Below the pieces are notes generated by a model. The model made no database searches. It had not been told where the DNA came from and saw nothing but the letters and a program-made list of their open reading frames with translations. Made by a program: the position numbers and the translations under genes. A stretch of DNA of 48,387 bases from Promethearchaeia archaeon (lineage in GTDB: Archaea; Asgardarchaeota; Lokiarchaeia; Sigyniarchaeales; SOKP01): positions 1 to 48,387 of the forward strand of contig JAHQWP010000048.1 of assembly GCA_029856235.1 (NCBI GenBank), given 5' to 3'. Shown piece after piece: positions 66 to 28,934 of the stretch; positions within the stretch are counted from its first letter, which is position 1, and every line of letters starts with the position of its first letter.

Positions 66-1361
66 CTAAGGAAAAAGTAAAAGGATAAATAGAAATCCCA
101 TTGCACTTAGTATATGAATTATAGCAAAAGTAGCTCCAGTTTTTAATAGTCGTTTGTATCCTAAATTTTCAACGCCATTATCTTGTGCTACCTTAAGTGT
201 CATGAGATCTGCTGCAGCTCCTTGTGGAATTAGATTGCCACCTAAATTGATTGCAACAATAAAGGCAAATAAGAGAGGAACAGAAGGAAAATCGAATGTA
301 TTAATAAGCGTTTGCAAGATGGGAATAAAGATTAATGCAGTTGGGGTATTAGCAACGAAACCTGAAATCAAACTTACTAAGATAAGGAGAATAAATGCGA
401 TCAATATGGGATCGAGTAATTCAAATGGAATGATAGTAAAGATATCTGTAAATCCCGCTCTTAAAAGGCTTCCTATAATTATGTACAAAGATATGAAGAA
501 GAAAATTATTTCCCACTCAATATCTTTTAATAATTCCCCCATTGGTTTTTTTGTGTAGCTTCGATTTACTAAAACAAGTATTAAAGCTGCGATGATTGCT
601 GTTAAGTATAAAACAGGTAAGATAATAAAAAGCACTATGGTAAGAATAATCGCAAAACTGTTGAAATAGAACATTTTTTTATTTTTAATCATAACTTTTG
701 CATCTACAAGCTCAAGAACGAAATTTTTTGTTTGTTCATCGATATTTGGTTCTTTTGAGAGTAAAAATCGATCTATTAGAAATATAGTAAGAAATAATAA
801 TAGAAAAGAGAAAATCCAATAATATTGAACGAAATAAAAAGTATCAAGCTTAAACGCTGTAGAAATAATAATATTTTCTCCACTTGAAAATGGAGTTATT
901 ATAGAACCGATATTAATACAGATTGTCATACCCAGCAAATAAGTTCCCGCTCGAATTTTTAAAAAATGACACAATCGGACTACCACAGGAGCTAGAATTA
1001 ATACTACAACAACATCAGAAATAACAGCTGCTAATATCGTGGTAATCGTACAGAGAAGATAGAGAAAAATCCTACGGTCACCTTTTGATATTTTAAAGAG
1101 TTTTACTGCTACGTACTCTAAAATATTTGAGTCTTGGGCGATTTTAGTTATTATACTCATGCTTAAAATTATCAGAATAGCTTCCCATTCTACATCGAGT
1201 ATAAAATTTTCGATACCAATTCCTTGTTGAATACCGGTAATTGTGGCACCCAAAAACATGCAGAATAAGGAAATGGCAACAAAATCTACACCCTTTATGG
1301 AATAACTAACAATAATTACGATAAAAAGTACAAAAAGAAAAATTAAAAGCGGTAGATTCAT
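66..1361 (-). CDS. ArsB/NhaD-type ion permease
   Basis: A 431-residue protein that is almost entirely hydrophobic, with about 11-12 predicted membrane segments, the usual size and shape of the ArsB/NhaD/CitM ion transporter superfamily. Two re-entrant-loop-like stretches are visible: one in the first half containing GSIITPFSSGENIIIS and one near the C-terminus containing LGGNLIPQGAAADLMTL. These occupy the places where the family binds its ion. It would act in the cytoplasmic membrane, either as a sodium/proton antiporter or as an anion (arsenite or dicarboxylate) carrier. No arsR, arsC or arsA gene lies nearby, so arsenic export is not specifically supported. It is transcribed alone; an AT-rich TATA-like stretch lies about 25 bases upstream of the start. 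The family call is firm, the substrate is not. Confidence 0.85.
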   Translation of the reverse strand: MNLPLLIFLFVLFIVIIVSYSIKGVDFVAISLFCMFLGATITGIQQGIGIENFILDVEWEAILIILSMSIITKIAQDSNILEYVAVKLFKISKGDRRIFLYLLCTITTILAAVISDVVVVLILAPVVVRLCHFLKIRAGTYLLGMTICINIGSIITPFSSGENIIISTAFKLDTFYFVQYYWIFSFLLLFLTIFLIDRFLLSKEPNIDEQTKNFVLELVDAKVMIKNKKMFYFNSFAIILTIVLFIILPVLYLTAIIAALILVLVNRSYTKKPMGELLKDIEWEIIFFFISLYIIIGSLLRAGFTDIFTIIPFELLDPILIAFILLILVSLISGFVANTPTALIFIPILQTLINTFDFPSVPLLFAFIVAINLGGNLIPQGAAADLMTLKVAQDNGVENLGYKRLLKTGATFAIIHILSAMGFLFILLLFP

Positions 1362-1666
1362 CGGTGGTTAGACTATAGATTTTAAATTTTATTACTTATG
1401 TTAATAAACACCTTTTAATAAATCTAATGATATTATATGATTCACGCCTTCTAATATGGCAATTTCATGATCGTAATAATTTTCTGAAATATTCCTAAAT
1501 TAGAAAAATAGGGCGCTAGCAAGGATCTTCTTCTCTTAACCAGATATATAGACTCCCTATTCAAATATAGGAACCAACTCATCAATGCGAGTGATATATT
1601 GTATTGGAATGGAAATTATCCTATTTAAGCATACCCTTTAGCAACAACCGCATCAAATTAAAGAAC
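1362..1666. other. Intergenic gap, no gene seen
   Basis: These 305 bases separate two minus-strand genes. I find no reading frame of useful length, no tRNA-like fold and no repeat. The left end holds the AT-rich promoter region of the permease gene; the rest is AT-rich sequence with a few GC-containing patches that I cannot interpret. Confidence 0.5.
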
Positions 1667-2521
1667 TTATTTAAATAGAAAAAGTTGTAGGAGAAATTTG
1701 AATAAGTTTAATTCCTTTAGTAAAGAAATATTTGAAATCAAATATTCAAAAATATTCTCTTCAATAAAATAGTGTAAGGTTACATAATACCCCTCTTCAG
1801 TTTTTATCATTTCTGTGATTCTCCTTATCAAATTTATTATTTGTTTTTCTACTACAAGCATATCGCAGTTAGTTGGATCGATGTTAATAATGTTTATGCC
1901 TGAAACACGATTAAACGAAATTTTGCTTAATTCGGGATTATTTTGAACGTACTGATGATTTAGGTAATTGGTAAACATAGCCTCAATTTGCTGATGTATT
2001 TTATCTTTTTTTTCAGAGGTAAAATGTCCTTCAATTACATTTATTAGTAGGTTTAATATTTGCTGAAATACACCTAATATGTCAAAATATTCAGCAATTG
2101 TTGATATATTTTCCGCGGTTAACCATTGGGAGTAATATTCATCGATAACATCCTTAAACGGACTAAATAGCTCCGTATTTCCTTTCCATAGATTTTTCCA
2201 GCTTTCTAAATCTTTGGAAACGTACTGTTCTAGAAATGTTTGCTTAATAACATTAAGGCGAGCTTTTAACATATTTGAGCTAATATCTTTCTCACATGTT
2301 GCCACAAATAATAAATTTGAATCTTTGTCCTCTAAATATGACCATCTAAGGCCTCCCATTTCAATACTTTCTATACCTGTTTTAAGTTCATAGGTAGTAA
2401 ACTGGTTTAGAGCGGCTAAAAGTCCACTAATGAGATCCTCGTCTAAAGACAGATCCATATAAGGTTTGTACAACAACGTGATCCCACTTTCTGAATCAAG
2501 TACCCATATATTCATACTCAA
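1667..2521 (-). CDS. Longin-like domain protein of Asgard type
   Basis: A 284-residue soluble protein. Residues 1-100 have the pattern of the longin/Roadblock-like small domains that are expanded in Asgard archaea: a first strand with a Ser-Gly turn (WVLDSESGITLLYKPY), a helix (DLISGLLAALNQFT), a beta hairpin (IESIEMGGLRWSYLEDKDSNLLFVA) and a long final helix. In eukaryotes such domains sit on Ras-like GTPases and trafficking proteins (SNAREs, adaptins, Mon1-Ccz1). The remaining 180 residues are mostly helical with a hydrophobic C-terminus and no motif that I recognise. No small GTPase gene is in this window, so the partner is unknown. The assignment rests on pattern recognition, not on an alignment. 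Confidence 0.7.
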   Translation of the reverse strand: MSMNIWVLDSESGITLLYKPYMDLSLDEDLISGLLAALNQFTTYELKTGIESIEMGGLRWSYLEDKDSNLLFVATCEKDISSNMLKARLNVIKQTFLEQYVSKDLESWKNLWKGNTELFSPFKDVIDEYYSQWLTAENISTIAEYFDILGVFQQILNLLINVIEGHFTSEKKDKIHQQIEAMFTNYLNHQYVQNNPELSKISFNRVSGINIINIDPTNCDMLVVEKQIINLIRRITEMIKTEEGYYVTLHYFIEENIFEYLISNISLLKELNLFKFLLQLFLFK

Positions 2522-2602
2522 ACCCCGATTTTAGAGTTTATCAATAGTAATATAAAATTACTATTTAATAAATGATTATAATTAGATAATATCTTTATTA
2601 AT

Positions 2603-3100
2603 TCACAAGAAATCTTGAAGGTCTTTTGTTTTGCAAACTTTCTCTATGTTTCTCAACATCTCAGAAATTTTCCTCTGTAATACTAGATCTGCGCCTCCTC
2701 CTAATAGATTAAGAAATTCGCTACTTAAGGAGAAGGTCTCTATAAAGACGCCTAATTTCGATTTTGTAGGGGAGAGCGATTTAATGCGCAAACGGCCTTC
2801 TAATTCTCTAATATTCTCATTATTTCTAACATTGAATTCAATTAATCGCCCTTTACCGGCCTCTTCACCCTTGTCTGAAAGTACTAATTCTCCTTCCATC
2901 TCTATTGGAATTTTAATAAGATCAATTTCATCATAAATTTTAGTATATAGTACATTTGGAGCAGTGAATTCCGCCTCCATTTTTTTCGCAGGATTAATTT
3001 CTTCCCAAAATTCAGCTTTATAGAGCGCTTGAAAAAGAGCTTCGTTATTACAGTTATTCACTTCTAAAACTTTTGAAATCTTAGCCAATTTTAACACCAT
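2603..3100 (-). CDS. START/SRPBCC-like (CoxG-type) protein
   Basis: A 165-residue protein with the START/SRPBCC signature order: a short strand at the N-terminus (AKISKVLEVN), a helix ending in a Phe-Trp pair (LYKAEFWEEINP), a series of beta strands, and a long C-terminal helix (LVLQRKISEMLRNIEKV). Proteins of this fold hold hydrophobic ligands in a deep cavity or act as cyclases or carriers; nothing here shows which ligand. It lies 81 bases upstream of the longin-like gene on the same strand, so the two may be co-transcribed. The fold call is moderate; the function is unknown. Confidence 0.55.
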   Translation of the reverse strand: MVLKLAKISKVLEVNNCNNEALFQALYKAEFWEEINPAKKMEAEFTAPNVLYTKIYDEIDLIKIPIEMEGELVLSDKGEEAGKGRLIEFNVRNNENIRELEGRLRIKSLSPTKSKLGVFIETFSLSSEFLNLLGGGADLVLQRKISEMLRNIEKVCKTKDLQDFL

Positions 3101-3304
3101 AAGAAATTTTCGTATGATTTACTAATAAAAGTGGAAAATTTATAATCTTTTATATTACATAACATAAAGTTAAGAAAGTTAGCCTCAGACTTCCTTGATT
3201 ATTTCATCTATTTTGATCCTAAATCATTTATAACATTTCATCATTGGCTTACAAATTACGCTTTAAGTAAAAAAATTAGCGAAAATTTTTGATTTTTTGT
3301 AATT

Positions 3305-3502
3305 TTAATCCCGGAACAGCATGCTCTCTTCTAAATTCCGTTCCTCTTTACAATTGGGGCAAATCCAGGTAGTATCGTTCTTTTTTATAGAATTAATACA
3401 CATATCACAAATAGTTGTATCGCAAATGCAATAAGAGCATCTATCAAGTTTATCTGCGCAATCCTTTCCACATATAAAACAATTTGGAGGGTTTTTCGAC
3501 AT
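3305..3502 (-). CDS. Small ten-cysteine zinc-finger protein
   Basis: A 65-residue protein with ten cysteines: C8-x2-C11, C15, C22-x2-C25-x-C27, C32-x2-C35 and C48-x2-C51. The spacing suggests two zinc sites in a cross-braced (RING, FYVE or PHD-like) or double treble-clef arrangement, with a classic zinc-ribbon knuckle at the end (WICPNCKEE). There is no other domain, so it is probably an adaptor, a nucleic-acid-binding factor or a ubiquitin-system-like part. Asgard archaea are known to carry RING-type proteins, but no E1/E2-like gene is near. It is divergent from the small membrane protein at 3585, with 82 bases between them. Confidence 0.6.
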   Translation of the reverse strand: MSKNPPNCFICGKDCADKLDRCSYCICDTTICDMCINSIKKNDTTWICPNCKEERNLEESMLFRD

Positions 3503-3584
3503 TTCTATTTTATATTTTAAATTCTTTTATAATATTCATTATTATGATTATTATTAATTAAATTTAACAAAATTTCATAGTAAA

Positions 3585-3767
3585 ATGGAAAAACTTCAAA
3601 AACAAATTCAGTTACTTGCTTTAATAATTATATTTCCTATATATAAAGCCATAGAAGCTACTATTTTAAATAGTTATCCGGAAATTATTTTGTGGACCTT
3701 AATCTCGATTTTTTACGCTATTTCTCTTGTAATTTTATATCTTGTTTTTAAAAAAAGACAAAAATAA
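3585..3767 (+). CDS. Small two-helix membrane protein
   Basis: A 60-residue reading frame with two hydrophobic segments, about residues 8-28 (LLALIIIFPIYKAIEATIL) and 34-55, ending in a basic tail (VFKKRQK). This is the shape of a small integral membrane protein. No family is recognised. The AT-rich region just before the ATG could be a leaderless promoter shared divergently with the zinc-finger gene. It could be a chance frame, but its hydrophobic pattern and charged tail favour a real gene. Confidence 0.45.
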   Translation: MEKLQKQIQLLALIIIFPIYKAIEATILNSYPEIILWTLISIFYAISLVILYLVFKKRQK

Positions 3768-3812
3768 TACTTTATTAACTTTAAGCTAGATAATGGCAGT
3801 TAACCTTATAGA

Positions 3813-4079
3813 TCATGTCTTTTTTTTAAAGATATCTTGAATCAAACCTTCTATTCCAAGACTTTTTAAAACGCTATCTTTAACATCTACTTCAACTTTC
3901 ATTTCTTGCATTACTTTTAGCGTATCTCCTAACCTTCTAGAAAATGCCTCGCTCATTTCTTTAATTGTATCAGAAGTTAATTTTAGAGATTCTCGAATAG
4001 CTAAATTAGTCTCGTGCAATTCTAAGGTTAACATTTCCATTGTCTTTCTCATTTCAGAAAGTTCATGTTTCAATCCCAT
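3813..4079 (-). CDS. Small coiled-coil protein
   Basis: An 88-residue hydrophilic protein that is predicted almost wholly helical. Heptad spacing of Leu, Ile and Met runs through residues 3-70 (LSEMRKTMEMLTLELHETNL onward), so it is probably a coiled coil that forms a dimer or a longer bundle. The last 20 residues are less regular and end in a Lys run. No family is recognised. It is alone on its strand and converges with the small membrane protein at 3585, with 45 bases between the stops. Confidence 0.5.
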   Translation of the reverse strand: MGLKHELSEMRKTMEMLTLELHETNLAIRESLKLTSDTIKEMSEAFSRRLGDTLKVMQEMKVEVDVKDSVLKSLGIEGLIQDIFKKKT

Positions 4080-4232
4080 TTTTAATCGATTTACCTAAAT
4101 ATAAGTTGTTAATAATTTTGTAAAAGAAGGAACTACTTAAAGTTTTTATTTAAATGAGATATTAATACGGTCAGACTATCAAATATAATAAAAATTCTTT
4201 TAAGAGTCCCTTTTCATATTTTAATTAACTTA

Positions 4233-4418
4233 ATGAAAAAATTTAACACAAATCAAATGTCGGAATGGAAAAATAAAATTAAAAGACAAACTATAGAATC
4301 AGAAGACTATTTCTGTGCAAGAACAGGATGAGGCATTTCTGACGGAATCGTAGAATTAATAAGTGTAATAAAAAAACGTCGCAGAGAGAAAAAAGCAAAA
4401 AAACTTGATAGAACTTAA
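4233..4418 (+). CDS. Candidate tiny selenoprotein A (in-frame TGA)
   Basis: From the ATG at 4233 the frame runs 32 codons to a TGA at 4329-4331, then stays open 28 more codons to TAA at 4416-4418. Read through, it gives a 61-residue peptide with a basic N-terminal half, an acidic patch, then C28-A-R-T-G-[TGA33]-G-I, a hydrophobic helix and a Lys/Arg-rich tail. The neighbouring gene at 4599 has the same layout, with Cys five residues before its TGA and Thr two before. A structured RNA starts 5 nt after the TAA. TGA is used as an ordinary stop elsewhere here (for example at 18701 and at 40923), so a reassigned code is unlikely. Selenocysteine is known in Lokiarchaeota. If TGA is simply a stop, the product is a 32-residue peptide. 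The function is unknown; Cys-x4-Sec suggests a redox role. Confidence 0.5.
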
Positions 4419-4422
4419 ATAA

Positions 4423-4484
4423 AATCTCAAAGATTGGATTATAAATGGTAGAATTCAATCGAGAGTTCCGCAAGAACCGAGATT
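4423..4484 (+). promoter_or_regulatory. 3' three-way-junction RNA, copy A (SECIS-like?)
   Basis: A 62-nt element that begins 5 nt after the stop of candidate gene A. Stem P1 pairs AATCTC (4423-4428) with GAGATT (4479-4484). Stem P2 pairs GATTGGA (4432-4438) with TTCAATC (4454-4460). Stem P3 pairs GTTC (4465-4468) with GAAC (4474-4477) around the loop CGCAA. The P2 loop contains TAAATGGTAG, which is also present in copy B at 4747, while the stems differ in sequence yet still pair. It starts about 90 nt after the TGA, a workable distance for a selenocysteine insertion element. I cannot find the eukaryotic AUGA/GA quartet in it, so if it is a SECIS it is divergent. Confidence 0.6.
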
Positions 4485-4491
4485 AAAACAG

Positions 4492-4496
4492 TTTTT
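4492..4496 (+). terminator. T-run after element A
   Basis: Five consecutive T residues follow element A by 7 nt. Archaeal transcription often ends at such T-runs, so the transcript probably ends just after the structured RNA. Confidence 0.35.
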
Positions 4497-4521
4497 AAAA
4501 ATATGTAACTTCTTAGAAATC

Positions 4522-4537
4522 TTTATTTTTTATAAAA
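4522..4537 (+). promoter_or_regulatory. TATA-like promoter of candidate gene B
   Basis: An AT-only stretch with TTTTTTATAAAA lies about 62-77 bases before the ATG at 4599. A start about 25 nt downstream would give a leader of roughly 40 nt. This suggests that gene B has its own promoter and is not only read through from gene A. Confidence 0.3.
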
Positions 4538-4598
4538 CTCACCCTTAATATCCCTGTTTTTTTATTCTAGATAGAAATTTTAGTAGTGATAAAAACTT

Positions 4599-4739
4599 AT
4601 GTCAGAAGAAGAAAGTGAATTTGATTTTGGATTTGACGAAAATTGCTATGAAACCAGTTGATCGCTAATTTCCATGTGGTATTTGAGAGCACTTAAATTA
4701 CAAAAAGAAAAAGAAAAAGAGAACCTAAAAACTAAATAA
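4599..4739 (+). CDS. Candidate tiny selenoprotein B (in-frame TGA)
   Basis: From the ATG at 4599 the frame runs 20 codons to a TGA at 4659-4661, then 25 more codons to TAA at 4737-4739. Read through, the 46-residue peptide has an acidic start (MSEEESEFDFGFDEN), then C16-Y-E-T-S-[TGA21]-S-L-I, a hydrophobic helix and a Lys/Glu-rich tail. The Cys-x2-Thr-x-[TGA] core, the following small residue, the helix and the charged tail match candidate A, although the two sequences are otherwise strongly diverged. This argues for selection on the frame across the TGA. The same structured RNA follows the stop after 7 nt. It could be a paralogue or a partner subunit of A. The protein is not one I recognise; if TGA is a plain stop it would be only 20 residues long. 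Confidence 0.5.
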
Positions 4740-4746
4740 TAACGCC

Positions 4747-4810
4747 ATCTCGAAGATTAAGTCGGTAAATGGTAGGATTTAATCTGTAAGTTCTCGCATG
4801 AACTTGAGAT
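4747..4810 (+). promoter_or_regulatory. 3' three-way-junction RNA, copy B (SECIS-like?)
   Basis: A 64-nt element that begins 7 nt after the stop of candidate gene B and 85 nt after its TGA. P1 pairs ATCTC (4747-4751) with GAGAT (4806-4810). P2 pairs AGATTAAGTC (4754-4763) with GATTTAATCT (4776-4785), ten base pairs including one G-T. P3 pairs AAGTTC (4788-4793) with GAACTT (4800-4805) around the loop TCGCAT. Compared with copy A, the P2 and P3 stems differ in sequence and length but keep pairing, whereas the loop motifs TAAATGGTAG and CGCA are kept. That is the expected pattern for an RNA under structural selection. Confidence 0.6.
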
Positions 4811-4824
4811 AAAAGATCTTTACA

Positions 4825-4831
4825 TTTTTTT
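4825..4831 (+). terminator. T-run after element B
   Basis: Seven T residues lie 14 nt after element B, a likely transcription end before the convergent minus-strand gene at 4865. Confidence 0.4.
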
Positions 4832-4864
4832 ATGGTAATCCCTTAAGGAAGAAGTCTTAAACGA

Positions 4865-6229
4865 TTAAACCGGTTTTTTTGAACCCTCTCCGACCTTACG
4901 ATAAATAAAACCCTTTTTTTCAACTGTCTTCTTATCAAATATATTTCTCCCATCAATAATTATTGGCGTATTCACGATTTTCTTTAGATCATCAAGGTTA
5001 ATATTGTAATATTCAGAATGATTTGTCGTAAACATTAAAACATCTGCATTTGCAACTGCTTCGTTAAAATCGCTTGTGAGTTTAGTAAGCTTATAATCAC
5101 GCTCGTTTACATAAGGATCGTGAGCGATATACTCAATATTATGCGAGTGATATCTACTTTTTAGGACTCTTATGATATTTTCAGTTGGTGTATTTCGAGT
5201 ATCATCCGTATTTGCTTTATAAGAAACACCTAAAAGAACTATCTTTACATTGTCTACTAATCTATGAGAATCCCTAAATATGTTTTCCATTAATTTTATC
5301 ATGTGGTAGGGCATGTAGTCGTTAATTTTTCTAGAATCTGGAATTATTTTAATTTTTGATTCGTTTAATTTTTCTGTGTATTTATTGAACCCATAGAGCA
5401 GAAGCCAAGGATCTTTCGTTAGACAATGTCCTCCTACACCTGATCCGGGATAATGCATCATCCTATCATGCCGATGGTTTATTAAATTTATAATTTCGAA
5501 GATGTTACGATTGAAATCTTCAGATAACAAAGCCATCTCGTTAGCAAATGCAATATTCACATCTCTATATGCGTTTTCTATACATTTCGTTAATTCCGCT
5601 GTCAGAGTGTCAGTTACCTGTAACTCTTTCTTAACAACTTTTCCATACAAAAATTTTGCTTTTTCGTTAGCTTCTTGGCATCCCCCTCCTATTACACGGG
5701 GAAAATCTGTGATGTATTCTATTAATTTGCCTGGCATTACTCGTTCAAACGAGAATACCAAGTAAAAATCAGTACCTCTCTTAAGTCCACTCTTCTCTTC
5801 TAAAATAGTCTGAACGACATTATCTGTAGTTCCTGGAGCTACTGTAGATTCCAATATAATTGTTACTCCTTTCTTCATGTGTTTAGCAATCATTTCAGAG
5901 ACATCAATTAAAGAAGAATATCTAGGGATTTTTTGATCGTCAACGGGAGTTTGTACGTCGATTAAAATGTAATCTGCATCTTTTACAGCCTCGTATTTGT
6001 CAGAAACTTTAAATTTTTCGCTTCTTACTACTCTTTCAATTAGCTCATCCAGTCCTGGTTCATCCCCTTCGTAAGGATTTTTCCCTTGGTTTAGCCAATC
6101 TATTTTCCACCCCGATCTTTGGGACCTACGCTGAATACCAGTAACATAAAAATCAACAACATCAGCTAAAAGTGCCGCCATAGGAATACCGACATATCCC
6201 ATTCCGATTACAACTATATTAGTAGACAT
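4865..6229 (-). CDS. Nucleotide-sugar dehydrogenase (UDP-glucose/ManNAc type)
   Basis: A 454-residue member of the UDP-glucose/GDP-mannose dehydrogenase family, which oxidises the C6 alcohol of a nucleotide sugar to a uronic acid with two NAD+. The N-terminal Rossmann motif is VIGMGYVGIP (residues 7-16). The strand ESTVAPGTT lies at 127-135, the conserved Lys/Asn pair is in AELTKCIENAYR (K215, N219), and the catalytic Cys is C269 in GSGVGGHCLTKDP. The C-terminal domain has KANTDDTRNTP. The length is normal. The wording of the motifs is closest to the UDP-N-acetyl-mannosamine dehydrogenase (WecC-like) branch, but the substrate cannot be fixed from sequence alone. It probably feeds cell-surface glycan or protein glycosylation. 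It is transcribed alone. Confidence 0.9.
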   Translation of the reverse strand: MSTNIVVIGMGYVGIPMAALLADVVDFYVTGIQRRSQRSGWKIDWLNQGKNPYEGDEPGLDELIERVVRSEKFKVSDKYEAVKDADYILIDVQTPVDDQKIPRYSSLIDVSEMIAKHMKKGVTIILESTVAPGTTDNVVQTILEEKSGLKRGTDFYLVFSFERVMPGKLIEYITDFPRVIGGGCQEANEKAKFLYGKVVKKELQVTDTLTAELTKCIENAYRDVNIAFANEMALLSEDFNRNIFEIINLINHRHDRMMHYPGSGVGGHCLTKDPWLLLYGFNKYTEKLNESKIKIIPDSRKINDYMPYHMIKLMENIFRDSHRLVDNVKIVLLGVSYKANTDDTRNTPTENIIRVLKSRYHSHNIEYIAHDPYVNERDYKLTKLTSDFNEAVANADVLMFTTNHSEYYNINLDDLKKIVNTPIIIDGRNIFDKKTVEKKGFIYRKVGEGSKKPV

Positions 6230-6343
6230 ATTCTTAATTATTAGTTTGTAATATTAATTATAAAATTGATAGAGATATAAATCAAACATTCTTGAAAAAA
6301 TTTAATATTAAAAAAAAAAATAAATAAATTAAACGAATAAATC

Positions 6344-7015
6344 TTACTTCGGTTTTTTCTTATAAGAAGTCCCTTTTACTGCCTTATAGATGCCTGCCAT
6401 TACAGCACCTGCAACAAATCCTCCCACGTGAGCAAAGTGAGCAGTTCCTGTTAACTCAAATGAGAAGAAGGCGTAAGTTAATTCTGTGATAAAGTAGGTA
6501 ATAATAAAATAACTAGCAGTTACTTTTCGCATCGTTGATCCTGTTGGAAGGAGAAACTTGTTGTTAGGATAAAGTATTGCGTAAACGGCCATTAAACCAA
6601 AAATAGCTCCGGACGCTCCTAATGAAGGAATGAATTGAGCTATTGTTGTTCCCCACATTGGGATAAAGACCGTACTCCATGCGTGAAGCATAGTGGCAAA
6701 TATTCCAGAAACGAAGTATGTCAATAAATAAAACACATGTCCCATTGCGTGCTCGCAATTATCTGTTATTACAAAAAAGAACCACATGTTCATAAGAATA
6801 TGGAGGATATCTCCGTGCATAAACATTGAAGTAAAAATTGTCCACAGTTTCTGACCTGCAAAAAATTCTGCAGGAACAAAAGCATACTCAATGCGCATAT
6901 TGCCGGTAGGATCCATCATTTGCCATACAAACACTAAAACATTGGCAATCAATATAATAACTGAAAAGTATTGCTTAAAAAAAGAAATTTTGTCGGATTC
7001 TGCTTCTAAAACCAT
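6344..7015 (-). CDS. Rhomboid intramembrane serine protease
   Basis: A 223-residue protein with six membrane segments that cuts transmembrane substrates within the membrane. The catalytic dyad is visible: Ser135 in GASGAIFG and His196 in AHVGGFVAG. The oxyanion and structural residues H67, H72 and N76 are present in HGDILHILMN. The length and the six-helix core match the compact prokaryotic rhomboids, without extra cytosolic domains. The gene stands alone, divergent from the DUF2961 gene with 158 AT-rich bases between them. All the catalytic residues are intact, so activity is likely; the substrate is unknown. Confidence 0.92.
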   Translation of the reverse strand: MVLEAESDKISFFKQYFSVIILIANVLVFVWQMMDPTGNMRIEYAFVPAEFFAGQKLWTIFTSMFMHGDILHILMNMWFFFVITDNCEHAMGHVFYLLTYFVSGIFATMLHAWSTVFIPMWGTTIAQFIPSLGASGAIFGLMAVYAILYPNNKFLLPTGSTMRKVTASYFIITYFITELTYAFFSFELTGTAHFAHVGGFVAGAVMAGIYKAVKGTSYKKKPK

Positions 7016-7173
7016 TTTATATCATCGAGTAAATAATTATTAATATAGATTTTAATATGATGATCTGATATTTGAAGGTATTTAAGATTTTGTTATATAA
7101 CTGATAAATCATTATTTAACTTAATATTCGTGGAAATTAAAAGTTAAAATACTAGAATGTGTTTATTTAACCT

Positions 7174-8358
7174 ATGAAATTAGGTAAATCGAGTTTATAT
7201 AACATTGCTAAAATTCGACCTGATTCTGTCAAAAGAAGAAGAGTCTCAAGTTATGATGTTACTGGAGGAAATCACGATTGGATAGATATAAATCCGGGAG
7301 AAAAAGTAATTATTGGAGATGTGAAGGGTACTGGATGTATAACTCATATTTGGTGCACTATTTTATGCAAGAAACGTTATTATTTGAGAAATATTATAAT
7401 TAGGATGTACTGGGATGACGAAAAAGATAGTAATCCAAGCGTTGAAGTGCCTATTGGAGATTTTTTTGGATTAGGCCATGCGAAGCGTAAAAATTTTATA
7501 TCTATGCCGTTCCAAATGAGTCCCCAAAGGGGTAGAGCATTTAATTGTTGGTGGCCAATGCCTTTTTCAAAAGGATTTAAGATGACTATAGAAAACGATA
7601 ACTCTAAGCAAATGAGGCTGTTCTTCTACATTGACTATGAAATCTTTGAAGACGGAGATGAAAACGAAAAGGATTATGGGAGATTTCACGCACTTTGGCA
7701 TCGTGAAAACCCTACAAGTCCCAAAAAGAGGGATAGTGAAACCGGTAAAAAAATCTCAAAGATTAAACCTATACATTTTGCCTATAGAGGTCGCAATATT
7801 GACGATCCTTTTACTCAAAATTATAAAATACTCGAAGCAAAAGGTAAAGGTCATTACGTTGGGTGTCATTTGGATATCGATAATATTACTTTTAATCCGT
7901 GGTACATTAATTGGCCAGGCGAAGGAGATGATATGATATATATTGACGACGATATTGATAAAAGGGTCGCGACTCTACATGGAACGGGCACAGAAGATTA
8001 TGTAAACCAATCTTGGGCTCAAAGTCAAAAATATCACGCCCCTTATCACGGCACAATTAAACCAGGAGGGCTAAATTGGTGGGGCAAAATCTCGTATTAC
8101 AGATATCACATTGAAGACCCAATCTATTTCAATAAGAAAATTGTGGTTACAATAGAACATGGACACGATAATCATCGTAAAGACGATTGGTCTTCAACTG
8201 CTTACTGGTACCAACGGGAACCACACGATCCTACATTATTCCCAAAATTACTCAATAAGAAAGGAAGAAAACCTCGTTTCCATATAGCCCATTTGATCAG
8301 AAAGACTTTGTGCATCGTTCTAATAGTATTCCTAATCTCGTTATGGTTTATTATTTAG
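7174..8358 (+). CDS. DUF2961 (GH172-like) protein with C-terminal anchor
   Basis: A 394-residue protein of the DUF2961 family, now partly known as glycoside hydrolase family 172 (difructose-anhydride and D-arabinan-type activities in bacteria). Family hallmarks are GCITHIW near residues 49-55, the acidic strand SVEVPIGDFFG, and HGTGTEDYVNQSW near 269-281. The last 20 or so residues (TLCIVLIVFLISLWFII) form a single membrane segment and there is no signal peptide. The catalytic domain is thus tail-anchored and, if inserted like eukaryotic tail-anchored proteins, would face the cytosol. That is unusual for a glycoside hydrolase. The substrate is unknown. An upstream AT-rich region is shared divergently with the rhomboid gene. 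Confidence 0.8.
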   Translation: MKLGKSSLYNIAKIRPDSVKRRRVSSYDVTGGNHDWIDINPGEKVIIGDVKGTGCITHIWCTILCKKRYYLRNIIIRMYWDDEKDSNPSVEVPIGDFFGLGHAKRKNFISMPFQMSPQRGRAFNCWWPMPFSKGFKMTIENDNSKQMRLFFYIDYEIFEDGDENEKDYGRFHALWHRENPTSPKKRDSETGKKISKIKPIHFAYRGRNIDDPFTQNYKILEAKGKGHYVGCHLDIDNITFNPWYINWPGEGDDMIYIDDDIDKRVATLHGTGTEDYVNQSWAQSQKYHAPYHGTIKPGGLNWWGKISYYRYHIEDPIYFNKKIVVTIEHGHDNHRKDDWSSTAYWYQREPHDPTLFPKLLNKKGRKPRFHIAHLIRKTLCIVLIVFLISLWFII

Positions 8359-8444
8359 ATTTTTTTTCAAAAATGTTTATGATTTGCGCCTTAAAAAAAC
8401 CAAAAGTGAAAAATATAAGACATAAACATTTTTAACTTATATCT

Positions 8445-9479
8445 ATGTCAGAAATTGATTTAGCTACAGCAATTATTGGAATTTCCTTAGCTATATTCAC
8501 TACTTTTTGTTTTAATTTAGGTATTGTATACCAAAAGAAGGGGTTAAAGGAAGCAAAATTAAAAGGAATTGAGATAAAAACTGAGGAAGGGTTTATCCAC
8601 ATACTAAAAACTTTTGGGAAATTGTTTTCAGTTAGATCTTGGTTAATTGGTGCGATTACGGGAATTATCGGATGGTTTCCATATATAATATCGATTGGAA
8701 TGGTGGGCGTTCTCGTAACTGAACCTGTAATGGCAACAGGATTTATCTTTTTCGTCCCTGCTGCAATGAAAATCTTAAAAGAAAGAGTCGGGATTATTGA
8801 GTATATAGCAATCGGAATGTTAACGATATCTCCTATTCTTATTGGGTTCGCTGGTATTTCTGATGTCGATCTTGATTTAATTGAGTTTGTTCCGTCATTA
8901 ATTATATTTTTAGCAATATCTCTCTCAGTTTGTATTATTTCACTTACTATGGCTAAAAAAAAGAGGGGTAAGAGTATTGAGGGTCTTTTTATTATGTTTG
9001 GAGGTGCAATTTTATTTGCACTTGGAGGTTCTGCTACAAATATCTTAGCTCAGGCGTTGCAACAAACAGGCGAGGGTTTTCAGTGGTATACAATATTCGA
9101 GTTACCATTTGGTATCTTTTGGTTCCTGTTTGGAGGGGGTGTCGCCCATCTATGGATATTTTTAGGGTTTTGGATGATGGCAGCTTTCAACATTTCCAGT
9201 CTCCCCTACTATCAAGGGGGATTTCAAAAAGGTAAAATCCTTATAATGTATCCAATTTTGGATTCAATCGCTTTACTTCTTCCAATTACTGCTGGTATTT
9301 TTGTCTTTAAACAGACTTTCTCTAACTTTCCTCTTTTCTTTATTGCTTTGATCTGTAGTGTCTTTGCCACAATTGTCCTAAGCAAGTATCAAGCTGCGGT
9401 TGAGAGCATGGATTCTATAGAATTAGATAGTGATAAAGAAAGTAGTGAACCTACTAAGCGATCTACCGATCTTGAATAA
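8445..9479 (+). CDS. NIPA/EamA-like multi-pass transporter
   Basis: A 344-residue protein with nine or ten hydrophobic segments and the start typical of the NIPA branch of the drug/metabolite transporter superfamily: a first helix ending in FNLGIVYQKKGL, as in the FxxGxxxQKKG motif of eukaryotic NIPA magnesium transporters. A helix with GVLVTEPVMATGFIFFVPAA follows, where NIPA proteins have their conserved second repeat. The C-terminal 25 residues are acidic and soluble. It may carry Mg2+ or another small solute across the cytoplasmic membrane. It is a single gene, 86 bases downstream of the DUF2961 gene on the same strand. The superfamily call is firm; the substrate is inferred. Confidence 0.7.
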   Translation: MSEIDLATAIIGISLAIFTTFCFNLGIVYQKKGLKEAKLKGIEIKTEEGFIHILKTFGKLFSVRSWLIGAITGIIGWFPYIISIGMVGVLVTEPVMATGFIFFVPAAMKILKERVGIIEYIAIGMLTISPILIGFAGISDVDLDLIEFVPSLIIFLAISLSVCIISLTMAKKKRGKSIEGLFIMFGGAILFALGGSATNILAQALQQTGEGFQWYTIFELPFGIFWFLFGGGVAHLWIFLGFWMMAAFNISSLPYYQGGFQKGKILIMYPILDSIALLLPITAGIFVFKQTFSNFPLFFIALICSVFATIVLSKYQAAVESMDSIELDSDKESSEPTKRSTDLE

Positions 9480-9581
9480 TATTATTGGTTCTTGATTGTA
9501 AAAAATTCTTAAACCTATTTTCTTATTAATATATTATACTATAATATACATATACTCACTAAAGCAATCCTAATAATAACC

Positions 9582-25049: not shown

Positions 25050-28001
25050 ATGCAAATATTAGATGTAGAAAAAGAACTTGAGAATTTTAAAGGACAGTTA
25101 AATCTGCTTGCTATGATCTTCGATACACGCAGAAAAATGCGAAGGGAGATTTATAATGAAAAAACAGGTTTTTATTTCAATGCTAAATATCAATTCTCAA
25201 CTAAAGATGATGCTTTTAATGTATATGTGATTTTTAAAGATGGAAAGATGACTGTCGCTGATGGAAAAATTGATGACCCTAATATCACGATATATTATAA
25301 AGATAAAGAGACTTTGGCTAACCTTTATAACAAAAGTGCTGAGGAATCGCTTGATTACCTTTTAACAAATGAAATGGGATATGTTGGAAATATGAGTTAC
25401 CTTACTAAATTCTCTTATCTCACATCACTCGTAATGGGGGCTAAAATAAAGGATTATAAGGGTCCTGAAAATCGATTATTGTATCCAATTGAAGATATTG
25501 ATCATAGAAAACTCGTTAATAAAAGCCTAAATCGTAAAATTGATAATGTTCAAGTATTAGAGGATCCATATTTAGCTAATTATTCTTTAAACGACTTTCC
25601 TAGGCTGAGTTATTTAAAAAACAGAAGATTTGCCTTAAAACCAGCAATATGTGCTGAAAGGGCGAAATTAGTTACAGAATATCATAAAGAAAATGGATTT
25701 GAATTAGATAAATCTGGAAATCCTTTTGATCCAGAATTACGACAAGCAGGAGCAGTGAATTATATAATGTCTAATAAAAAACCAATAATTCACGATAAAC
25801 ACCTTATTGCCGGCTCCACTACTTCGAAAGAAGTTGGTATACCTATGTATCCTGAACTTATAGCGACAGCAATATGGCCTGAATTAAAAACAATAGCCGA
25901 GCGAGAACTCAATCCTAACGATATTTCAGAGAAAGATGCTGATATCTTAAGTCTTGAAGTATTTCCGTACTGGATGGAACGAAATGTAAGGGAATATTGT
26001 AGAACAAAAAATAACAATCCAAAATCACAAGCATTAGAAGAAGGATGGGTTTTCTACTTTATGATGAAAACGAACGCCATTAGCCATACTGTTCCGGGTT
26101 TTCCAATGGTTCTAAATGAAGGCTTAGAAAGCGTTAAAAATAGGGCAAAGAAGTTAGAACAAGAGACCGAAGATATTGAGAAGAAGAATTTTTACAAGGC
26201 TATTCAAACTGCGATTGAAGGCGCGTTAGCCTATTCAATGCACCTGAGTGAGGAAGCTCTTAAACTCGCTAATAGTATGGATTCTAATGATCAAGATCAA
26301 GCAAAAAGAATAGAAGAATTAAAAGAAATTTCAAGGATATGTGCTAAAGTACCTGCAAAACCGGCAGACACATTATATGAAGCAGTTCAATCGATTTGGA
26401 CTAGTTTTGTATGCCTTCATTGTGAAAATGCGAACTCTGCTTTATCTATTGGAAGACTTGATCAGATGTTACAACCCTTTTTCATTAAAGATATTGAGAA
26501 AGCAAAAACTGAAGACGAGAAACAAAGCATCATTAAACATGTTATTGAATTAGTTGGATCCTTGTTTCTAAGAACCAATGACCACGATCCATTAATGCCA
26601 AATGTAGGTTGGAAGTTATTCGGAGGTAGTTCTTCAGACGACACTGTAACTATTGGAGGTGTGGATAGAGAAGGCAAGAATGCTGTTAATGATATGTCTT
26701 TTATTATTTTAAAAGCAAATGAAATGCTAGGTTTTCAAGATCCGAATATGAATGCCCGATATTATTCTGGGATTAACTCCAAAGAATATTTACGAAGACT
26801 AACAGAAGTCAACATTAATATGGGAGCGTCTCCGAGCATCCATAATGATAAGACTATGATTGAAGCTTTAGTCCATGAAGGGTTTTCTTTAGAAGATGCA
26901 AGAGATTGGGCGGTCACAGGATGCGTAGAACCCACGATTGCAGGAAAACATTATGGTCATACAAATTGTATGCTTTTAAACTTAGTTGCTCCTTTAGAAA
27001 TGGCATTAAATAACGGAAATATTCCCTTAACTGGCGATAAGATGGGTGTTGAAACCGGTGATGTTCGATCAGATTTTCCTACCTTCAGTGATTTTCTCAA
27101 TGCATACAAGGAACAACTTAAGTATTTAACCGAACAGTCGATTGAGATAAATAATTTTCTTGGGGATGCACACGAGTATGTTCATCCTACGCCCTTATTA
27201 TCAAGTTTTTACGAAGGACCTTTAGAAAAAGGTAAAGATCTTATAAAAGGTGGTGCAATCTATAACACTTCAGGGGTTGCTCTTGTAGCACTAACAGATG
27301 TTATTGATAGTTTATTAGTTATAAGAGATTTAGTGTACAACAGAAAAGAATTCGATTTTGCGACGTTGATGGAAGCAATTGATAGCGATTTTGAAGGATA
27401 CGAATCAATTTTAAATAAAATAGAGCAAGTTCCTAAATTTGGATCTGGTGAAGAAGGAACAGTTGAATTAGCTCAGGATATCATTGATTTCTGTTATAAC
27501 ATATATAATTCTGCTGATAATTATAGAGGCGGGAAATATCTTGTAGGATACTGGTCAATTAGTTATCATACTGGATTTGGAATGCTTACAGGGGCTTTAC
27601 CGTCAGGTAGGAAGAAAGGAAAAGCTTTGACGCCGGGATTAACTCCTGCTCCAGGGACTACTGATATATTGCTCCCAAGTATTCAGAGCGTTGCAGCTTT
27701 AGATTACTTGAAAATGGCTAATAATGCCTCATATAATGTAAAGTTGGTACCCCATGCAGGAGATACTCATGAACAAACATTGGATTTGTTTACTAGTTAT
27801 GTTCAAAGTTTTTTCGATTTGAATGGAATGCAATGGCAATTTAATGTTATATCATCAGATACTTTGAGAGATGCTATGGCCAATCCAATAGATTATAGAT
27901 GGTTATTAGTCAGAGTTTCGGGGTATAATGCTTACTTCACGAAATTAAATAAAAATATGCAATTAGAAATAATTGAACGGCATGAATATCAAGCAAAATA
28001 A
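25050..28001 (+). CDS. Glycyl radical enzyme with SCP2-like N-terminal domain
   Basis: A 983-residue enzyme. Residues 1-150 resemble the SCP2 sterol-carrier fold: FNVYVIFKDGKMTVADGK, then NITIYYKDKETLANLYN and a C-terminal helix. Residues 190-983 are a pyruvate formate-lyase-type barrel. The radical Cys is C625 in TGCVEPTIAGKHYGH, where Glu at +2 marks the dehydratase/lyase branch (not PFL, which has Cys-Cys). The glycyl radical site is G958 in RVSGYNAYFTKLN. The usual family length is 770-830, so the extra 150 residues are the SCP2-like domain. The substrate is unknown; the lipid-carrier-like domain suggests a hydrophobic one. The activase gene follows after 33 bases. Confidence 0.9.
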   Translation: MQILDVEKELENFKGQLNLLAMIFDTRRKMRREIYNEKTGFYFNAKYQFSTKDDAFNVYVIFKDGKMTVADGKIDDPNITIYYKDKETLANLYNKSAEESLDYLLTNEMGYVGNMSYLTKFSYLTSLVMGAKIKDYKGPENRLLYPIEDIDHRKLVNKSLNRKIDNVQVLEDPYLANYSLNDFPRLSYLKNRRFALKPAICAERAKLVTEYHKENGFELDKSGNPFDPELRQAGAVNYIMSNKKPIIHDKHLIAGSTTSKEVGIPMYPELIATAIWPELKTIAERELNPNDISEKDADILSLEVFPYWMERNVREYCRTKNNNPKSQALEEGWVFYFMMKTNAISHTVPGFPMVLNEGLESVKNRAKKLEQETEDIEKKNFYKAIQTAIEGALAYSMHLSEEALKLANSMDSNDQDQAKRIEELKEISRICAKVPAKPADTLYEAVQSIWTSFVCLHCENANSALSIGRLDQMLQPFFIKDIEKAKTEDEKQSIIKHVIELVGSLFLRTNDHDPLMPNVGWKLFGGSSSDDTVTIGGVDREGKNAVNDMSFIILKANEMLGFQDPNMNARYYSGINSKEYLRRLTEVNINMGASPSIHNDKTMIEALVHEGFSLEDARDWAVTGCVEPTIAGKHYGHTNCMLLNLVAPLEMALNNGNIPLTGDKMGVETGDVRSDFPTFSDFLNAYKEQLKYLTEQSIEINNFLGDAHEYVHPTPLLSSFYEGPLEKGKDLIKGGAIYNTSGVALVALTDVIDSLLVIRDLVYNRKEFDFATLMEAIDSDFEGYESILNKIEQVPKFGSGEEGTVELAQDIIDFCYNIYNSADNYRGGKYLVGYWSISYHTGFGMLTGALPSGRKKGKALTPGLTPAPGTTDILLPSIQSVAALDYLKMANNASYNVKLVPHAGDTHEQTLDLFTSYVQSFFDLNGMQWQFNVISSDTLRDAMANPIDYRWLLVRVSGYNAYFTKLNKNMQLEIIERHEYQAK

Positions 28002-28034
28002 ATAAAATCTTATTTTATTTTTCACAGTTTAATA

Positions 28035-28934
28035 ATGTTAGACAAAACATTACTTGTCGATATCAAAAGAAACGCGTTAGATGATGGTCCAGGAATAAGA
28101 ACCTTAGTTTTTTTTAAAGGATGTCCTCTTTCTTGTGTTTGGTGTCAAAATCCTGAAGCTATATCACCATTTAAAGAAATTTCTTTTAATAGGAATAGCT
28201 GTAGTGAATGTGAAACATGTTTAAGCGTTTGTAATCAAGACGCTATAGATTTTTCATATGAATATCGAATAAACCGCTCAAAATGTAATCTTTGTGGTAA
28301 GTGCATTGAAGTTTGCCCAAATTCCGCTTTAAAATTTGTAGGTCAAGAATATAGCATAAAAGACTTGCTCGAAATTATATTAAAAGATAAAATCTTTTAT
28401 AAAAATTCAGGCGGAGGGGTTACCTTTTCTGGCGGAGAACCGCTTTATCATATAGATTACATGAAGGCCTTAGTAAAAGAACTCAAAAAAGAAGAGATAA
28501 ATGTGTGCATTGAAACTTGTGGATATTATAATCGAAACAAATTTTATAAATTTATTTTACCACATATCGACCTTATCTATTTTGATTTAAAAATCTACGA
28601 ACCAGAATTACATGCTAAATATTGTAAAGTTTCAAATGAAAGAATATTAGCAAATTTTGAAGATGTCATTAAAAACAAATCAATAGAAATAGTACCAAGG
28701 ATTCCTCTTATTCCGAATATAACTGATACTGATGATAACTTGAGTAAATTGGCTAATTATTTAAAAACTTTAAATATAAGAAGAATAATATTATTACCTT
28801 ATAATCCCCTTTGGGTTTCTAAACCGGCAATGATAGGAATTAAGCCGTCCTATAATTATTCTGAATGGATAGATATTAAAAATAAAGAGAGAATTAAATC
28901 AATTTTTTCTGATCTTGAATTTAACGATTTTTAG
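28035..28934 (+). CDS. Glycyl radical enzyme activase (radical SAM)
   Basis: A 299-residue radical SAM enzyme that makes the glycyl radical on the preceding gene product. The radical SAM cluster motif is C30-x3-C34-x2-C37 in GCPLSCVWCQNPE. It is followed by an inserted ferredoxin-like domain with two 4Fe-4S motifs (CSECETCLSVCNQ and CNLCGKCIEVCPN), as in the activases of dehydratase- and lyase-type glycyl radical enzymes and unlike that of pyruvate formate-lyase. The SAM-binding GGEP motif occurs in GVTFSGGEPLYH. The gene lies 33 bases after the enzyme gene, so they are one operon. It works only without oxygen. Confidence 0.95.
   Translation: MLDKTLLVDIKRNALDDGPGIRTLVFFKGCPLSCVWCQNPEAISPFKEISFNRNSCSECETCLSVCNQDAIDFSYEYRINRSKCNLCGKCIEVCPNSALKFVGQEYSIKDLLEIILKDKIFYKNSGGGVTFSGGEPLYHIDYMKALVKELKKEEINVCIETCGYYNRNKFYKFILPHIDLIYFDLKIYEPELHAKYCKVSNERILANFEDVIKNKSIEIVPRIPLIPNITDTDDNLSKLANYLKTLNIRRIILLPYNPLWVSKPAMIGIKPSYNYSEWIDIKNKERIKSIFSDLEFNDF

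Follow-up and report, generated by a model that had tools for sequence, protein, structure and literature searches.

The stretch of DNA that we analyzed (the window; 48,387 nucleotides of contig JAHQWP010000048.1 of a Promethearchaeia archaeon, assembly GCA_029856235.1) carries two small adjacent genes, here called F1 and F2, that each stay open through an internal TGA (Table 1). Aligning both gene regions revealed strong similarity after the stop codons, a block of RNA that was absent from the original prediction for this locus. The frames, both TGAs, and both TAA stops given in that prediction stood, but its F1 start at position 4233 did not. The ATG conserved among relatives is at 4257 (MSEWK...); conservation does not extend to 4233, which is probably too early a start. 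As had been claimed, TGA is a normal stop elsewhere in the window, where it ends 8 of the 41 long ORFs that we picked.

Table 1. Positions of the F1 and F2 genes and their 3' RNA elements in the window, and of the tRNA-Sec gene of the same genome
Feature	Position	Strand	Remarks
F1 selenoprotein gene (proposed)	4257..4418	+	53 residues, Sec = residue 25, MSEWK...CARTG-U-GISDGI...KKRRREKK
F1 Cys codon before Sec	4314..4316	+	C-x4-U in window, C-x2-U in most relatives
F1 in-frame UGA, proposed Sec codon	4329..4331	+	TGA in 35/35 aligned ORFs
F1 3' RNA element, proposed SECIS	4424..4483	+	63.1 bits
F1 element outer stem	4424-4428/4479-4483	+	
F1 element hairpin I	4432-4440/4452-4460	+	apical loop AUAAAUGGUAG
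F1 element hairpin II	4465-4468/4474-4477	+	loop CGCAA
F2 selenoprotein gene (proposed)	4599..4739	+	46 residues, Sec = residue 21, MSEEE..DFGFDENCYETS-U-SLISMWYLRALK...
F2 conserved Cys codon (C-x4-U)	4644..4646	+	alignment of relatives
F2 in-frame UGA, proposed Sec codon	4659..4661	+	TGA in 26/27 aligned ORFs, TGT in the other
F2 3' RNA element, proposed SECIS	4747..4810	+	79.7 bits
F2 element outer stem	4747-4751/4806-4810	+	
F2 element hairpin I	4755-4763/4776-4784	+	apical loop GGUAAAUGGUAG
F2 element hairpin II	4790-4793/4800-4803	+	loop UCGCAU
tRNA-Sec gene	L145:2086-2236 (own genome, contig C65)		two introns: anticodon loop, T arm

Both families share a [T/S]-[G/S/T]-U motif (U, proposed Sec) followed by a basic C-terminal part. 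F1 proteins are 44 to 62 residues long with a median net charge of +6, and F2 proteins are 45 to 59 residues long with a median net charge of -3, being acidic before Sec (N-part median, -8) and basic after it. AlphaFold predicted a helix that begins at Sec in F1, a helix that spans Cys and Sec in F2, and no strands, with low pTM values (0.35 and 0.37) that support no fold. A convergent gene, which we take from its translation to be nucleotide-sugar-dehydrogenase-like, adjoins F1/F2 in 21 of 25 loci (the exceptions are L075, L080, L081, and L102, the last of which ends before it), and we read this neighbor as sharing a position rather than a function with F1 and F2.

Conservation of the UGA codons and of the frames behind them

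An F1 profile searched against the 227 phylum genomes gave matches with E values no higher than 3e-7 in 46, all of them in the Lokiarchaeal family of the window (46 of its 65 genomes), and six further genomes gave only weaker matches (E 0.002 to 0.009) without TGA. Each of the 46 matched stretches contains one TGA, and two also contain a TAA. TGA was present in all 42 of the 46 F1 sequences that we read, 35 by script and seven by eye (L015, L017, L080, L081, L157, L159, and L161). The F1 of G022 has a frameshift in the assembly, and that of G013 has no ATG at the usual place. F2, searched for by profile within the family and with a single protein in 58 relatives, was found in 27 of the 65 family genomes at 29 loci, with TGA in 28 and TGT (Cys) in the exception. 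One genome (G154; L175 and L176) has three F2 copies, two of them in tandem outside the usual locus. The F1 and F2 most similar to those of the window are in G008.

In codon alignments, TGA occupied one column in 35/35 F1 and 26/27 F2 ORFs. The sequences left out of these alignments, namely the F2 of L163 (whose frame runs past a second TGA), the F2 of L008, and the seven F1 that the script pattern missed, all have TGA. The aligned proteins are 33 to 96% identical to the first row, with the same TGA and downstream frame kept in dozens of genomes. After the UGA, D is invariant across 22 F1, and W, Y, R, A, and K are among the residues invariant across 11 F2. Loss of the frame behind the TGA in relatives and a dN/dS near 1 in that part had been named as observations that would speak against recoding. 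We found the downstream frame to be conserved in 46 (F1) and 27 (F2) genomes, and the median dN/dS for unsaturated pairs was 0.37 upstream and 0.45 downstream (406 pairs) for F1 and 0.22 upstream and 0.46 downstream (249 pairs) for F2. In the closest pair, window and G008, selection on the downstream part of F1 is weak (8 nonsynonymous changes over 66.8 sites and 3 synonymous changes over 17.2 sites).

The C-x4-[TGA] spacing proposed as common to both genes is general in F2 (26/27 ORFs, the other being the Cys form) but not in F1, where C-x2-U occurs in 32/35 ORFs and C-x4-U in 3/35; that the F1 and F2 of the window have this spacing in common is partly a coincidence. Three more divergent F1 (G152, G155, and G159; loci L157, L159, and L161) have C-x7-U: Asn or Lys stands where C-x2-U has its Cys, a Cys occurs five residues before that position, and the UGA is kept.

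Consistent with the original prediction that the peptides belong to no known selenoprotein family, comparison of 22 F1 and 11 F2 with Pfam and NCBIfam gave nothing near a cut-off (best Pfam E, 0.0044 for DUF3088 in 7/22 F1; best NCBIfam E, 0.031), and no PDB sequence was convincing. The predicted new family is new but is two families rather than one; as a check on joint origin, comparison of the F1 and F2 profiles gave a probability of 28% over 20 columns. We rejected as chance a stretch resembling F1 (E 0.09 to 0.10) in what is presumably a P-type ATPase-like protein. F1 and F2 would share Sec, mostly with a nearby Cys, with the known archaeal selenoproteins (SelD, HdrA, FrhD/VhuD, FrhA/VhuU, Prx-like, AhpF-N-like, and DsbA-like), but they differ in matching no family model and in being whole proteins of 44 to 62 residues. 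Small size and, for F1, CxxU are features in common with selenoprotein W and the CC/Se motif family NF041239, but F1 and F2 have no NCBIfam or Pfam match and no predicted strands. To our knowledge, F1 and F2 would rank among the smallest selenoproteins.

A three-helix RNA element at the 3' ends of F1 and F2

In 30 seed elements from relatives, the RNA consists of an outer stem (UCUC/GAGA), a nine-pair hairpin (hairpin I), and a short second hairpin (hairpin II) with a mostly YGCAA-like loop. In the apical loop of hairpin I, AAA is unpaired and invariant in 30/30 seed elements and UAG is nearly invariant. In a MAFFT alignment of these elements, 94.7% of 570 cells were paired and 11/19 pairs had two-sided changes, which was matched by 0/500 shuffles and by no slid version. 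For all 71 elements, 96.0% of 1348 cells were paired, 14/19 pairs had two-sided changes, and the covariation score was 0.383 (shuffles, 0.191; slid versions, no higher than 0.133). Fourteen two-sided pairs were reached in 1/500 shuffles, and the other measures were reached in none. This larger alignment was fitted to the RNA model, and the MAFFT seed alignment of 30 agrees with it. Since the outer stem hardly varies, it is supported by conservation more than by covariation.

RNAalifold alone recovered just part of the second hairpin. Folding of tightly cut single sequences gave the three-helix form for both window elements (z, -1.8 and -3.0), with 11/200 and 2/200 shuffles folding as well, and the F2 stretch with a longer flank folded otherwise. 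An Rfam scan of the window returned nothing at the gathering threshold, and we took three matches at a lax threshold as chance.

The 71 elements lie in 44 loci. We could check the upstream sequence of 69 of them (one of the other two is at a contig end and one is behind a masked stretch), and 69/69 stand behind a frame with Cys and an in-frame UGA, 66 behind C-x2-U or C-x4-U and 3 behind F1 with C-x7-U, a count that is not blind, as the loci were mostly found through the proteins; blind evidence comes from fewer loci. When we ran a degenerate version of the element as a pattern against 257 Gb of genome sequence from bacteria and archaea, it matched 14 loci, all in Lokiarchaeota MAGs, and each of the 14 had a C-x2/4-UGA frame at the element, just upstream (13 F1 and 1 F2), one of these frames being frameshifted in its N part. 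Eleven of these contigs were already known, ten of them as sources of seed elements, and three were new (L092, L093, and L095). The same scan of viral contigs gave no match. The RNA model alone recovered F1 in two genomes (G028 and G036) in which the single-protein search had missed it. The genome-wide RNA search scored 91 of the 648 to 9531 first-look candidates per genome, and further genes with weaker elements may be present in the scanned genomes. Weak matches to the RNA model (25 to 30 bits) in G025, G054, G050, and G042 had no Cys-x-UGA frame upstream, and we set them aside as chance or unexplained; the one at L082:1501-1562 (G025; 30.1 bits) is possibly a decayed locus or chance.

A homolog with TGC or TGT in place of the TGA, which the original prediction proposed to look for, was found once for F2 and not for F1 (227 genomes; E 0.01). 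The sole Cys homolog is the F2 with TGT in one MAG (G148), which is isolate 9R3_44 judging from its identity with L095. Behind this F2 we found no element on either strand with all filters off (best, 4.6 bits), and the F1 just upstream in the same locus keeps both its TGA and an element of 72.2 bits. A Cys F2 without an element is the pattern expected on a change from Sec to Cys. In G142, 19 nt separate the F1 stop from the F2 start, and the sole element is behind F2, after both genes. This arrangement of one element for two genes is like that of the hdrA-frhD pair, which has one common SECIS (PMC11227280).

Known SECIS types and the Sec machinery

We tested for the strict published SECIS core ([A/G]UGA below the upper stem and GA or AA after, with at most one mismatch). 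It occurred in 14/20 regions taken as SelD 3' ends (shuffles, 1 to 4), a few of which are not true SelD ends. In F1 and F2 it occurred at the level of shuffles, in 1/35 regions (shuffles, 2 to 6) and 4/26 regions (shuffles, 1 to 4), respectively; the F2 ORFs of L121 and L163 were left out, and for a few genes the tested region cuts the first bases of the element. We discarded the loose published eSECIS pattern (PMC11227280; our own reimplementation, stems without gaps) as evidence because shuffled AT-rich sequence matches it nearly as often.

The F1/F2 element resembles the Asgard eSECIS-like element (AUGA_GA; Huang et al. 2024, PMC11227280) in its 3' position, outer stem, long hairpin, and unpaired A's near the apex. 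In contrast to AUGA_GA, it has no quartet, with the two positions above the junction paired as G-C and A-U type, and its apical motif, AAAUGNUAG, is unlike those of Asgard eSECIS-like elements. The SelD SECIS elements of the same genus have the core, along with room for a second short hairpin (loop YGC in 11/15 and YGU in 4/15), and our RNA model (R1), tried on 14 loci, recovered no SelD element. With the euryarchaeal eaSECIS (GAA_A bulge), the F1/F2 element shares the 3' position and archaeal machinery, but GAA follows the outer stem in only 5/30 seed elements (by eye), the upper stem is A-U rich with no G-C run, and a three-way junction replaces the one hairpin. From these comparisons, the F1/F2 RNA looks like a new SECIS variant without the AUGA_GA core that would serve in decoding. 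Our literature searches, mostly of titles and abstract openings, returned no paper about F1/F2 or about Asgard SECIS elements with a three-way layout.

The genome of the window was also examined for the Sec machinery, a check suggested by the original prediction, and it contains tRNA-Sec, SepSecS, SelD, and a PSTK-like gene, with EFSec absent from the assembly. SelD has an in-frame TGA and its own SECIS. The SepSecS match scored 478 bits with a model that matches 1/14 controls. The PSTK-like gene, matched over its full length, reached 165.8 bits where the curated cut-off is 290.5, and its model matches 9/14 controls. The tRNA-Sec gene (anticodon UCA) lies 78 nt before the SepSecS match, and ARAGORN calls it when its two introns (28 and 30 nt) are excised from the sequence. 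The Rfam tRNA-Sec model was over its cut-off in 12/25 genomes; we rejected its match in the genome of the window as tRNA-Leu only, the real gene being the one with two introns beside SepSecS. ARAGORN reads the tRNA-Sec of G005 and G015 without introns; in that of L143 (G004), both the T arm and the D arm seem to carry an insertion. A T-arm intron in Lokiarchaeal tRNA-Sec is already published (cited in PMC5330540). EFSec gave no match in the genome of the window (98.8% complete, 226 contigs), and matches of 226 bits or more were found in 8/13 genomes searched, five of the same genus, with G008 among the eight and one match over the curated cut-off. We suppose that an assembly gap is the simplest reason for the missing EFSec.

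Two further observations concern genes of this pathway. An uncharacterized protein of ~225 residues is encoded directly after SepSecS in two genomes (L145:3735-4415 and L142:4912-5589), and an Asgard protein of no assigned role near Sec genes is mentioned in PMC11227280. Several genomes of the genus have two adjacent SelD genes (L047-L050, L053, L055, and L056). Both genes of a pair contain an in-frame TGA and have a SECIS of their own, with differing cores (AUGA or UUGA).

Interpretation of F1 and F2 as probable small selenoproteins

With a probability of roughly 0.93, we interpret F1 and F2 as two small selenoproteins in which UGA encodes Sec as directed by the 3' RNA, on evidence at the level of genes and RNA. 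The predicted recoding of TGA to Sec gained support from the conserved TGA, the coding sequence on both sides of it, the Cys homolog without the RNA, the 3' RNA itself, and the machinery. The in-frame UGA would be decoded by Sec-tRNA(UCA), with the ~60-nt RNA at the 3' end of the message directing this decoding as a SECIS, and translation would end at the next stop codon (UAA for both window genes), which lies either in the element or no more than about 16 nt from it.

Readthrough of UGA with an ordinary amino acid, by a suppressor tRNA or as programmed readthrough with the 3' RNA as its signal, would agree with an element without the canonical SECIS core and with the missing EFSec in this MAG. 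We regard it as very unlikely considering that the single sense-codon replacement is Cys and that this copy is without the element, that TGA is a normal stop in the ORFs of the window, that the genome has tRNA-Sec(UCA), SepSecS, a PSTK-like gene, and Sec-SelD, and that a Cys precedes the UGA shortly, mostly by 3 or 5 residues, in the F1 and F2 that we read. Hardly credible at all is that the peptides end at the UGA (at 24 and 20 residues) or that the genes have decayed, the remainder of each frame being chance: the persistence of the downstream frame in 46 genomes for F1 and 27 for F2, the residues that stay invariant behind the UGA, a dN/dS below 1, and the Cys version in G148 outweigh the very short frames, the AT-rich DNA, and the weak downstream selection in the closest pair. 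The RNA might also be the functional product, as a terminator, a 3'-processing signal, or a small RNA, with the conserved frames riding along. Its sequence is invariant in parts, and it lies where the gene ends, mostly facing the convergent gene, but the in-frame-UGA frame at every checkable element, the absence of the element behind the Cys copy, and the single element after both genes in G142, as in hdrA-frhD, make this explanation highly improbable.

If Sec is inserted, it may form a reversible selenylsulfide with the nearby Cys (C-x2-U in most F1 and C-x4-U in F2), located where a helix with a basic tail begins or close to that point. A Cys-x4-Sec redox pair had been proposed for both peptides; its spacing proved general for F2 but not for F1. 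The most likely function of F1 and F2 appears to be redox, as a small selenothiol pair, a reading weakened by the three F1 that have Cys only at C-x7-U. With odds below even, a role other than redox is possible: the Cys and Sec could together bind a metal or cluster, or F1 and F2 could be selenium carriers or peptide substrates. The prediction of helices only, with no thioredoxin-like fold, the lack of any family match, and the shifted Cys position in some F1 are in line with such roles; the aligned F1, in contrast, have no further invariant Cys or His, and many redox selenoproteins carry C-x2-U (PMC13188914). The basic F1 and the F2 with its acidic N-part, encoded in tandem, may act as a pair. 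More specifically, we give even odds to a distinct SECIS class without the kink-turn GA quartet that is used by an F1/F2 minimal selenothiol couple in one Lokiarchaeia family.

The AUGA_GA core is regarded as a link between Sec decoding in archaea and in eukaryotes, and we know of no SBP2 for Asgard Sec decoding. If our interpretation is true, two new selenoprotein families are added, and the group nearest to eukaryotes would have a SECIS variant that does without this core. The distinct SECIS class, if real, would mean that Asgard Sec decoding recognizes a three-helix layout with AAA and YGCAA-like loops, not the quartet. One genome with both kinds of element makes the question of the Asgard SECIS reader testable, and a Sec copy with the element versus a Cys copy without it is a natural control. 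A large study of Asgard selenoproteomes relied on similarity to known families and then on SECIS models, and its authors leave finding new selenoproteins to future work (PMC11227280); F1 and F2 would be missed by a search of that kind.

Next to F1 and F2, a small ORF at 3585-3767 (+) encodes a 60-residue membrane-like peptide and another at about 3308-3502 (-) encodes a Cys-rich zinc-ribbon-like peptide, both as judged by eye. The stretch from 25050 to 28934 holds what we take to be a glycyl-radical-enzyme-like gene and then, presumably, a radical SAM activating-enzyme-like gene.
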